Shown one piece after another: positions 9,360 through 12,637 of a DNA stretch of 64,000 nucleotides. Source of the stretch: Mesorhizobium sp. M7A.F.Ca.US.006.01.1.1 (lineage in GTDB: Bacteria; Pseudomonadota; Alphaproteobacteria; Rhizobiales; Rhizobiaceae). The notes beneath the pieces were generated by a model, which saw nothing but the letters and a program-made list of their open reading frames with translations, ran no database searches and had not been told where the DNA came from. Made by a program: the position numbers and the translations under genes. The DNA lies in contig NZ_RZQL01000005.1 of NCBI RefSeq assembly GCF_003997935.1, positions 1 to 64,000 on the forward strand. Direction: 5' to 3'. Within the stretch, counting starts at the first letter, position 1. Each line of letters begins with the position of its first letter.

Positions 9360-9510
9360 AGCCGGTCGCCGCCTCAGAATCTGGAATTTCCTGGAATGGC
9401 AGGTTTTCCCGGCCATCCCCTATGTAGGTAGTTTTGCCGCCACGTCGAGAGACGCCACAATTCCCGACCAAAGCGTTTAACCGTCTTTCGCGTGAACGGG
9501 CAAGCGGAAA

Positions 9511-9525
9511 GAACAAAGGCCGAAC
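9511..9525 (-). promoter_or_regulatory. LexA (SOS) box upstream of uvrA
   Basis: The plus strand reads GAACAAAGGCCGAAC, which is GTTC-N7-GTTC on the uvrA strand. This is the direct-repeat LexA operator known in alphaproteobacteria. It sits 152 bases before the uvrA start, a normal promoter distance with a leader. A further GAAC at 9494-9497 is not in phase. SOS control of uvrA is well known in this class. Confidence 0.8.
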
Positions 9526-9764
9526 ATGCTCCTGACAAAGCTGTGCAAAAACTGACCTGCACGTAACCTCCTAGCGATCACATTTTTCGGTAACCGGCTA
9601 TTGACGGTTGACGCGACGGACCCAGGGGCGCAGTCTCCAGCAGTCAACGAAGCCGGCCGTCTTTCGATGGCCTCGCCGCCCAGAGGCGGCCTGCGAGACG
9701 CCGCAGGCATTTGCGATTTGTGCTTCGAATTGACAACAATCGCAACGGACAGAGGAGCGGAGCT

Positions 9765-9824
9765 ATGACGCCACCGGATCGTCCCCCAGGGTTCCAGTTG
9801 TCACTGGAGCCGAGGCAGGCATAA
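9765..9824 (+). CDS. Possible 19-codon ORF (peptide or leader)
   Basis: An ATG at 9765 is preceded by AGAGGAG at 9751-9757, a near-perfect ribosome-binding site with 7-base spacing, and is followed by 19 sense codons and TAA. The peptide starts MTPPDRPPGF and ends SLEPRQA. It has PPD and PPG, tripeptides known to stall ribosomes in the absence of EF-P. No plus-strand gene follows before a terminator near 10018, so it would not be the leader of a protein gene. Reality as a translated ORF is unproven. Confidence 0.35.
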   Translation: MTPPDRPPGFQLSLEPRQA

Positions 9825-9980
9825 GTGCCAGGGTTCAGCGTTTTCGCCAGCCGGCAAACCGTGACCTGCCATCTCTCGTAAAAATCAGAGACTGCTAGTC
9901 GGATCGTCGGCTGAATGCCGCGGTGCATCCGAAATCAAACGCCGGCAGTACACTCCCGGTAAAATTGGATTTGAGATCCA

Positions 9981-10025
9981 AAAAGGCCCCGTCCGTTTGC
10001 CCAAGGCACGGCGGGGCCGTTTTAT
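9981..10025. terminator. Bidirectional rho-independent terminator
   Basis: GGCCCCG at 9985-9991 pairs with CGGGGCC at 10012-10018. The stem is preceded by AAAA and followed by GTTTTATTT, so it can stop transcripts in both directions. On the minus strand it follows the gene at 10071-10373; on the plus strand it would end the transcript from the 9765 region. Confidence 0.75.
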
Positions 10026-10070
10026 TTGGGGACTGTCTCGTTGACGATAGGCGCAACGCAGCACGCATTG

Positions 10071-10373
10071 TCAGTGACGCGGCGGCCCGATCGAGCCGGC
10101 ACCGACATCGACGGTGATGCTGCCGGAAATCCTGACATCCGTATCGCCGATCTTGAACTGACCGTAGCCGTTGCCGGGAAACGCGTCATCGGGTTCGGGC
10201 TTGGGAGCCGGCGTGGCGATGCGGTAGCCACCGGACACGCCGGGCAGGGCGCTTTTTTGCGTCGACGGCGAACTGTTCTCGGCAAGCGCCGCGCCGCTGA
10301 TGAAGCCCGCAATGGCGAGCGCAGCAACGGCGATGATGCGGTGCAATGATCTGGACGAATGAGTGTCGGTCAT
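10071..10373 (-). CDS. Secreted hypothetical protein (100 aa)
   Basis: The 100-residue product begins MTDTHSSRSLHRIIAVAA, with a basic start, a hydrophobic core (AVAALAIAGFISGAAL) and a signal-peptidase site near ALA-EN, so export to the periplasm is expected. The mature part is short, rich in Gly and Pro, and ends in a beta-strand-like DVRISGSITVDVGAG. The frame stays open further upstream, but this ATG is chosen because it places the signal peptide at the N-terminus. Function unknown. Confidence 0.65.
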   Translation of the reverse strand: MTDTHSSRSLHRIIAVAALAIAGFISGAALAENSSPSTQKSALPGVSGGYRIATPAPKPEPDDAFPGNGYGQFKIGDTDVRISGSITVDVGAGSIGPPRH

Positions 10374-10462
10374 CCCAAGACTATAGTGGCGCGCCGCCGA
10401 TGGAACCAGACCGGCATCGTCAAATCTTCGACAGCCGGCCGGACTCCAATCCGGCCCTGGCT

Positions 10463-11068
10463 TCAAGCCGCCTTTTTTCGCGTGTCGAAAACATGGTCGA
10501 CGATGCCCCATGCCTGGGCCTCGCGGGCGGTCATGAAGTGGTCGCGGTCCAGCGTGCGCTCGACCTCTTCATAGCTGCGGCCGCAATGCTGCGCGTAGAG
10601 TTCGGCCATGTGCCGTTTCGTCCTGCCGATGCGCTCGGCATGACGCTGGATGTCGGAGGCCTGGCCCTGGAACCCGCCCAGCGGTTGATGCAGCAGGATG
10701 GTGGCGTTCGGCAGGGAAATCCGACGTCCCGGTGTGCCTGCCATCAGCAGGAACGAGCCCATCGATGCGGCAAAACCCATGCATACGGTCGACACCGGGC
10801 AGCTGATATACTGCATCGTGTCGTAGATGGCGAAGCCGCTGGTCACCACTCCGCCCGGCGAGTTGATGTAGAGCGAGACCTCCTTATCGGGATTGTCCGA
10901 TTCCAGCGATAGCAGCTGCGCGCAGACCAGCGCCGAGATGTCATCGTTGATCTCGCCGTTGATGAAGATGATACGCTCACGCAGCAGCCGCGAAAAGATG
11001 TCGAAGGCGCGTTCGCCGCGGCTCGATTGCTCGATGACCATGGGCACCAGACTGGCAACACCGCTCAT
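10463..11068 (-). CDS. clpP: ATP-dependent Clp protease proteolytic subunit paralogue
   Basis: This 201-residue serine peptidase has the complete ClpP triad: Ser102 in GFAASMGSF, His127 in ILLHQPLGG and Asp176 in LDRDHF. The oligomer-forming and substrate-binding segments (INSPGG at 69-73, SGFAIYDTM) are intact. ClpP rings degrade proteins delivered by ClpX or ClpA. There is no clpX or tig beside it, so this is probably an accessory isoform rather than the main clpP that usually precedes clpX and lon; alphaproteobacteria often carry several. The convergent-free neighbourhood suggests an independent promoter. Confidence 0.93.
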
Positions 11069-12115: not shown

Positions 12116-12637
12116 ATGGCGGGTAGCGTCAACAAGGTCATTCTGGTCGGCAATCTCGGCGCGGATCCCGAAATCCGTCGCCTGAATTCTGGTGAGCCGG
12201 TCGTCAACATCCGCATCGCCACATCGGAAAGCTGGCGCGACAAGAATTCCGGCGAGCGCAAGGAAAAAACCGAGTGGCACAACGTCGTCATCTTCAATGA
12301 GGGCATCGCCAAGGTGGCGGAGCAGTATCTGAAGAAGGGCATGAAGGTCTATGTCGAGGGCCAGTTGCAGACGCGCAAATGGCAGGACCAGACCGGCGCC
12401 GACAAGTACACGACGGAAGTCGTTCTGCAGAAATTCCGCGGTGAGCTGCAGATGCTCGACGCGCGCGGACAGGGTGAAGGCGGCCAGGTTGGCGGCTACG
12501 CCGGCGGCGGCAGCAGCCGTGGTTCCGATTTTGGCCAGTCCAGCCCAAGCGAAGGCTTCAATCGCGGTGGTGGCGGTGCCAAGAGCGGCGGCGGTGGCGG
12601 TTCGTCGCGCGAACTGGACGACGAGATTCCGTTCTGA
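12116..12637 (+). CDS. ssb: Single-stranded DNA-binding protein SSB
   Basis: SSB coats single-stranded DNA in replication, recombination and repair. The 173-residue protein has an N-terminal OB fold ([18 protein letters not shown] through about residue 110), a Gly/Ser/Gln-rich linker of some 55 residues, and the acidic C-terminal tip DDEIPF that binds partner proteins. It reads from a LexA-controlled promoter and ends at a strong terminator, so it is a single-gene unit. The usual neighbour uvrA is present but about 2.7 kb away with other genes in between. Confidence 0.97.

Follow-up and report, generated by a model that had tools for sequence, protein, structure and literature searches.

A predicted structured small RNA with an embedded Pro-Pro-Asp reading frame beside uvrA in Mesorhizobium, with related copies in other genera

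What does the gene-poor DNA next to uvrA of Mesorhizobium sp. M7A.F.Ca.US.006.01.1.1 encode, if it encodes anything? The segment in question spans positions 9417 to 10070 of the window, i.e. the whole stretch of 64,000 nucleotides that was analysed (contig NZ_RZQL01000005.1), and is flanked by uvrA, which lies on the minus strand and comprises Pfam UvrA domains, and by further minus-strand genes including ClpP. The initial annotation had proposed a dual-function small RNA or a regulatory peptide gene missed by standard annotation, and had named a lack of conservation of the open reading frame (ORF) or of the structure in close relatives as one of the points that would refute it, the other being the lack of a transcript. 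Both were found to be conserved, and the proposal is therefore supported, with transcription remaining an inference.

The first supportable plus-strand gene downstream of the element is ssb, starting at 12116, which bears out the claim that no plus-strand gene follows. The ORFs in between are all located on the minus strand, namely an unnamed ORF (10071-10511), ClpP (10463-11068), an AHSA1-type gene and an ArsR-type gene. The small unnamed ORF adjoins the RNA, showed no Pfam match at E 0.001 and has a start that, in our own reading, looks signal-peptide-like; weak relatives of it adjoin uvrA in some other genera.

Based on its sequence, the element looks like an RNA gene reaching from 9643 to about 10022, with a predicted length of about 380 nt, that combines promoter, 5' domain, Shine-Dalgarno region, ORF, hairpin, 3' domain and terminator. 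The features are as follows:

9511..9525, no strand assigned: GAAC-N7-GAAC, a direct repeat on the uvrA side, presumably LexA-box-like (sequence).
9608..9636, plus strand: predicted sigma-70-type promoter with TTGACG (9608-9613), 17 nt and CAGTCT (9631-9636); conserved TTGAC/CAnnnT pair.
9643..9734, plus strand: 5' domain, a closed multi-branch fold from the predicted 5' end (fold of 9643-10022; covariation).
9754..9762, plus strand: Shine-Dalgarno region GGAGCGGAG (sequence; kept in most of the genus alignment).
9765..9824, plus strand: 19-codon ORF MTPPDRPPGFQLSLEPRQA with the stop TAA at 9822-9824; all 70 aligned genus loci have the ATG, and 67 have 19 codons.
9771..9779, plus strand: Pro-Pro-Asp motif, codons 3-5, inside the sole stretch with inferred coding selection (parsimony steps by codon position).
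9790..9811, plus strand: predicted hairpin from ORF nucleotide 26 (stem-start position over 63 diverse loci compared with shuffles).
9880..9936, plus strand: 3' domain, AATCAGAGAC and the predicted helix TCGGATCG...GCATCCGA; strong conservation, part of it matched in several distant loci.
9941..9981, plus strand: two small predicted hairpins ahead of the terminator, of which only the first is in the consensus structure as helix 16 (fold).
9985..10027, plus strand: predicted intrinsic terminator, hairpin and T-run; 4 pairs with two-sided changes (helix 17).

The ORF with a near-ideal ribosome-binding site reported in the initial annotation was recovered, with the GGAG at 9754-9757 preceding the ATG at 9765, and the same holds true for the strong terminator, whose hairpin (9985-10018) is followed by TTTTATTT. 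The extent of the transcript required a revision: while the small RNA candidate as such stands, its start at 9526 does not, and with a predicted start at about 9643 the stretch 9526-9642 would comprise promoter and flank.

Folding and covariation both point to a structured RNA. A stretch of 505 bases folds at -201 kcal/mol compared to -178 kcal/mol in shuffled sequences, which is better than 100 of 100 shuffles (z -3.5), and the first 92 bases from the implied start at 9643 close into one domain. Covariation was determined in an alignment (A1) of 38 of the 40 genus loci left after thinning, which came from 70 loci fetched from the 144 matching genomes; L039 and L041 were left out due to insertions, and the truncated L062 was removed before thinning. 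Among 85 pairs, 97.5% of the cells were paired, and 24 pairs showed two-sided changes compared to a mean of 10.0 (sd 2.0) in shuffles, none of 500 shuffles reaching any of the five measures. These changes included 8 pairs in the hairpins of the 5' domain (helices 3-5) and 4 in helix 16, while in the 3' domain one pair switches from A-U to G-C in 5 of the 38 sequences. Sliding the partners by 1-3 columns decreased the paired cells to 30-41%. The structure was derived from the same 38 sequences, which gives it an advantage when compared to the slid versions; relatedness is not accounted for in the shuffles.

The covariation of paired bases also bears on the possibility that the region is merely regulatory DNA of uvrA, under SOS control and without any RNA gene. 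The GAAC-N7-GAAC box would fit such a role. It precedes the predicted -35 element by about 80 bases, 92 of 126 sequences have such a box no more than 420 nt ahead of the ORF, and it probably belongs to uvrA rather than to the RNA. However, covariation is left without an explanation by this reading, and 10 of the 13 ORF-bearing loci among L131-L150 lack uvrA within their locus, which spans about 3 kb. We regard a purely regulatory DNA as barely credible.

Within the genus, the 651-base region matches 144 of 146 genomes, its own included, where it occurs once. Outside the genus the picture is patchy. Of 297 family genomes searched at the DNA level, 59 matched at E <=0.01, some of them by chance. 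From the matches outside the genus, not all of which were fetched, 45 loci (L076-L120) were obtained, and the ORF is present in 40 and absent from five (L111, L115, L118, L119 and L120); these five matched at E 1e-4 to 0.007, and no uvrA start was seen in the locus. The covariance model R1 found 34 of 397 genomes of the order at E <=0.01. Among the loci L131-L150 taken from the R1 search, M-x-PP-[DG] is present in 13, PPE in one (L147) and neither in 6. With the model R2, which comprises ORF and hairpin, 30 of 397 genomes were found in the order at E <=0.001, 3 of 289 in a sample of the class, comprising the genome analysed here and two that lie outside the order, and 9 of 249 in a sample of the phylum, all nine within its own order. 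Since the covariance models include sequences found earlier, part of these matches arise by construction; alignment A2 comprised 27 of 30 candidates together with L001. The exact pattern was found in 34 loci of named genomes, with titles covering Mesorhizobium, Aminobacter, Aquibium, Pseudaminobacter, Nitratireductor, Aquamicrobium and uncultured relatives, and in the 30 of these loci that hold the uvrA start, uvrA is divergent and at most 900 nt away. In more distant copies this arrangement is often lost. The DNA upstream of uvrA was also inspected in 29 further cases, taken from genomes that the family-wide DNA search had not matched or that lie outside the family; the ORF was present in 4 and, by the pattern used, absent from 25.

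Another family contributes L241 (MTPPDQ) and L245 (MTPPAK), two loci from genomes of 7-8 Mb that belong to a single genus; in both, an ORF follows on the same strand within a few hundred bases. In the own genome, a second site combining GGAG and ATGATCCCACCCGG is located at G000:C247:3425-3448. Plasmid and phage collections contained no similar DNA at E 0.001, and a mobile origin was rejected for lack of any such match.

The conservation of the ORF is confined to its beginning. Its length in the genus deviates from 19 codons in only three aligned loci (12 codons in two, 24 in one). Parsimony steps on a tree, counted for codons 2-5 at codon positions 1, 2 and 3, amounted to 0/1/14 in 68 Mesorhizobium sequences (binomial P 2e-6), to 0/2/10 in 17 loci with their best DNA match in the 3' domain (P 5e-4) and to 3/13/58 in all 126 unique sequences (P 3e-15). 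Codons 7-12 are without third-position bias in the same three sets (24/20/30, 36/24/27 and 149/111/133), and the two prolines at codons 3 and 4 underwent synonymous changes only. In distant loci the constancy of the prolines is partly imposed by the search motif, and the clean check is the Mesorhizobium subset, which was aligned without a motif filter; in the 17 loci the ORF was located by motif and absent in none, L104 having a second match over the ORF. Judged from these counts, coding selection is limited to codons 2-5, i.e. x-P-P-(D/G).

At codon 5, the 126 unique sequences comprise D (107), G (14), K (2), N (1), E (1) and A (1), resulting in PPD or PPG at codons 3-5 in 121 of them and PPK (2), PPN, PPE or PPA (1 each) in the other five. 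An ORF whose stall depends on EF-P would be expected to carry a strong PPX motif at a fixed place, and such a motif is conserved here. The initial annotation had counted two stalling-prone motifs. While PPD is kept in 69 of 70 genus loci, PPG at codons 7-9 is found in 12 of 70 and is not conserved; by this comparison the second motif is incidental. Lysine after Pro-Pro was observed in L239 (MKPPKS, between uvrA and ssb, outside the family) and in L154 (MNPPKS). The smallest form of the ORF, in L152:1097-1188 on the minus strand, consists of MSPPD and an immediate stop.

One could argue that the AUG region is kept as an RNA element, for example a seed or a protein site, without being translated. 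In the predicted fold the AUG is indeed unpaired, the Shine-Dalgarno region only partly. The third-position bias, which is confined to codons 2-5 and appears also without a motif filter, contradicts this, making an untranslated element very improbable. A classic dual-function small RNA, in which the peptide itself acts and the RNA base-pairs elsewhere, would require an ORF under coding selection within a structured RNA, which is met for codons 2-5 only. A translated ORF on a structured RNA has a counterpart in rnTrpL/peTrpL, as far as the accessible part of that source goes (PMC10117765). The C-terminal part of the peptide, in contrast, is not conserved: residues past codon 6 drift, and so does the stop, which lies anywhere from codon 5 to codon 39 among 63 diverse loci. 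We consider an acting peptide quite unlikely. Since coding selection covers codons 2-5 only, the function probably lies in the stalling itself and not in the peptide.

The position of the hairpin within the ORF is in line with such a stall. In 51 of 63 diverse loci the start of the best hairpin falls on ORF nucleotide 25-26, and in all 63 it falls on nucleotide 22-28, compared to 6.6% and 22.9%, respectively, in shuffles of nucleotides 19-74; the search covered the first 74 nucleotides, with a stem start permitted from 13 to 45. The sequence of the hairpin varies among the loci (e.g. GGCTCC, GACCTC, GATCGC, CTTTCAT and GCCCCGCC). Its stem was matched by at most 5% of 40 shuffles in 45 of 63 loci, while in the remaining 18 more than 5% of the shuffles were as good. 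The 63-locus counts, alignment A3 and model R2 were gathered by the ORF motif, and 22 of the 63 loci came from models containing the hairpin; in the 41 loci not found by hairpin-bearing models, the start at nucleotide 25-26 was determined in 33. If Pro4 (nucleotides 10-12) occupies the P site, the ribosome should reach about 15-16 nt further, so that its front edge would lie at nucleotide 25-26. Provided that this general footprint rule applies, the predicted hairpin starts where a ribosome paused at the two prolines would have its leading edge. Sequestration of the Shine-Dalgarno sequence through pairing of GGAG with the 5' hairpin arm (GGCUCC or CCUC) was rejected as a general explanation; it is plausible in many loci and by eye absent in L136, L240, L243 and L244.

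Promoter- and terminator-like sequences accompany the element beyond the window. Of 63 diverse loci, 59 contain TTGAC at a distance of 90-260 nt upstream of the ORF (controls: 7 for the reverse complement, 6 for the reversal), and in 49 of 63 CAnnnT follows it at a spacing of 16-18; when this test was shifted by 12 nt, the count was 1 of 63. Between 8500 and 11000, a simple consensus scan did not report any promoter. Outside the family, 20 loci were tested for a terminator, and 18 have a terminator-like hairpin that begins 194-222 nt past the ATG; L131 and L239 failed, and L137 and L139 were not included. By a rule of length and codon bias, the nearest downstream ORF of the 63 loci lies on the same strand in 24 and on the opposite strand in 19, was not found in 4 and could not be assigned in 16 due to a too short stretch. 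A stand-alone small RNA gene should have its own promoter and terminator and no constant downstream gene, and this is met, on sequence evidence only, with ssb following in part of the loci.

These ssb genes lead to the possibility of a leader or attenuator of ssb that became decoupled in Mesorhizobium, in which the stalled ribosome would alter readthrough into ssb or its translation. Downstream ssb on the same strand was found in 21 of 63 diverse loci, with its start within 500 nt of the ATG in 11, and the interval between uvrA and ssb looks, from the loci compared, like the ancestral place of the element. The close ssb in 11 of 63 loci lowers our confidence in an independent RNA and raises that in a leader. 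However, a leader needs its regulated gene directly downstream on the same strand, which is not the case in the window, where minus-strand genes intervene before ssb, and elsewhere the situation is mixed: the terminator-like hairpin detected in 18 of 20 non-family loci comes ahead of whatever follows, neither ssb nor uvrA is near the element in many loci outside the family, and in L137 ssb lies on the opposite strand. An ssb leader is unlikely, though it cannot be neglected.

Altogether, we assume, with confidence barely above even, that the element is a structured small RNA of about 380 nt, transcribed on its own and containing a stall ORF, and that the stalled ribosome sets the fold, stability or activity of the RNA. 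The conservation and covariation of the RNA, the selection on codons 2-5, the near-fixed spacing between ORF and hairpin, the free stop, the promoter- and terminator-like sequences and the absence of a constant downstream gene are established at the level of sequence comparison. Transcription, the stall, its dependence on EF-P and its effect are inferred. According to the proposed mechanism, a ribosome would load at the strong Shine-Dalgarno site, synthesize fMet-Thr-Pro-Pro and pause once Pro-Pro occupies the P site and Asp (Gly in other loci) the A site, a state that would last until EF-P relieves it. The parked ribosome would cover the start region and abut the hairpin at ORF nucleotide 25-26. 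Its occupancy would report translation capacity (EF-P, initiation, proline) and may determine how the RNA, probably its conserved 3' domain, folds, how stable it is or how active. This domain (9880-9936) is probably the effector part, and no target was identified.

Short fMet-Pro-Pro-X peptides are a common substrate of stalling experiments in vitro. In the accessible part of a study of an efp mutant, PPG and PPD are among the motifs pausing ribosomes without EF-P, only 2.8% of PPX motifs paused significantly and upstream residues matter, and a stall is therefore not certain (PMC4140641). In that source, as far as accessible, the EF-P-dependent PPX motifs, which comprise the same tripeptide as the element, sit inside protein genes, whereas in the element PPX makes up nearly all of the conserved ORF. 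The EF-P-modifying enzyme EpmA was over the cut-off in 11 of 29 genomes with the element and in 12 of 23 without it; a co-occurrence was rejected, no association being observed.

A stall at codon 4 could also act differently, if the four-residue peptidyl-tRNA drops off and the RNA works as a minigene that consumes ribosomes or tRNA-Pro instead of gating a structure. The very short ORFs, one of them only MSPPD, the strong initiation site and the putative stall would be compatible with this, and a minigene with a regulatory effect is known, according to the accessible part of the source (PMC8708949). The covarying 5' and 3' domains and the position of the hairpin, however, would be left unexplained, and we judge a minigene rather improbable. 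As a broader and tentative extension of the stall-gated RNA, which we consider doubtful, the element may represent a family of alphaproteobacterial small RNAs that have as their working part a hairpin-braced ribosome parked on a minimal EF-P-dependent motif, read translation capacity and signal in trans without a cis gene.

A comparison with known systems revealed partial similarities. No Rfam family exceeded the gathering threshold for the window element or for 27 related loci, and below the threshold the window element showed only matches with E >6. In the open-access literature, the string MTPPDS was found in one paper only, on phosphorus ligands, and no description of this RNA was found; supplementary tables and most subscription journals were outside reach. 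The term uvrA was not found in PMC3927594, PMC2573895, PMC2780559 and PMC2873474. The trp attenuator small RNA of S. meliloti with its leader peptide, rnTrpL/peTrpL, is likewise a small RNA with a tiny ORF whose translation matters; it derives from the trpE attenuator, whereas the Mesorhizobium element has no constant downstream gene and keeps only a generic stall motif. Arrest-peptide leaders use longer nascent chains and regulate a gene in cis, in contrast to the four residues of the element and an RNA without a fixed downstream gene. In such leaders, namely RAPP-type peptides and, as far as the accessible part of the source describes it, MgtL (PMC11611912), the stall of the ORF is likewise the function. 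The small RNAs MH_s1-MH_s40 of Mesorhizobium huakuii are likewise conserved intergenic small RNAs of the same genus, and the main text of their description, to the extent accessible, does not mention uvrA or ssb (PMC5596092). Identity with one of them was rejected by weak inference, as none of the 40 seems to fit when its strand and its distance from the SRP RNA are compared with those of the element across 20 other genomes.

Known arrest sequences switch the gene that follows them. If the proposed reading is true, an RNA consisting of a start site, Pro-Pro-Asp/Gly and a hairpin at the edge of the ribosome, with no fixed gene in cis, would be a trans-acting sensor of translation, and the simplicity of the element makes the monitoring of EF-P capacity by bacteria directly testable. 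It would furthermore add an RNA family without a match in Rfam 15 to well-studied plant symbionts and their relatives.
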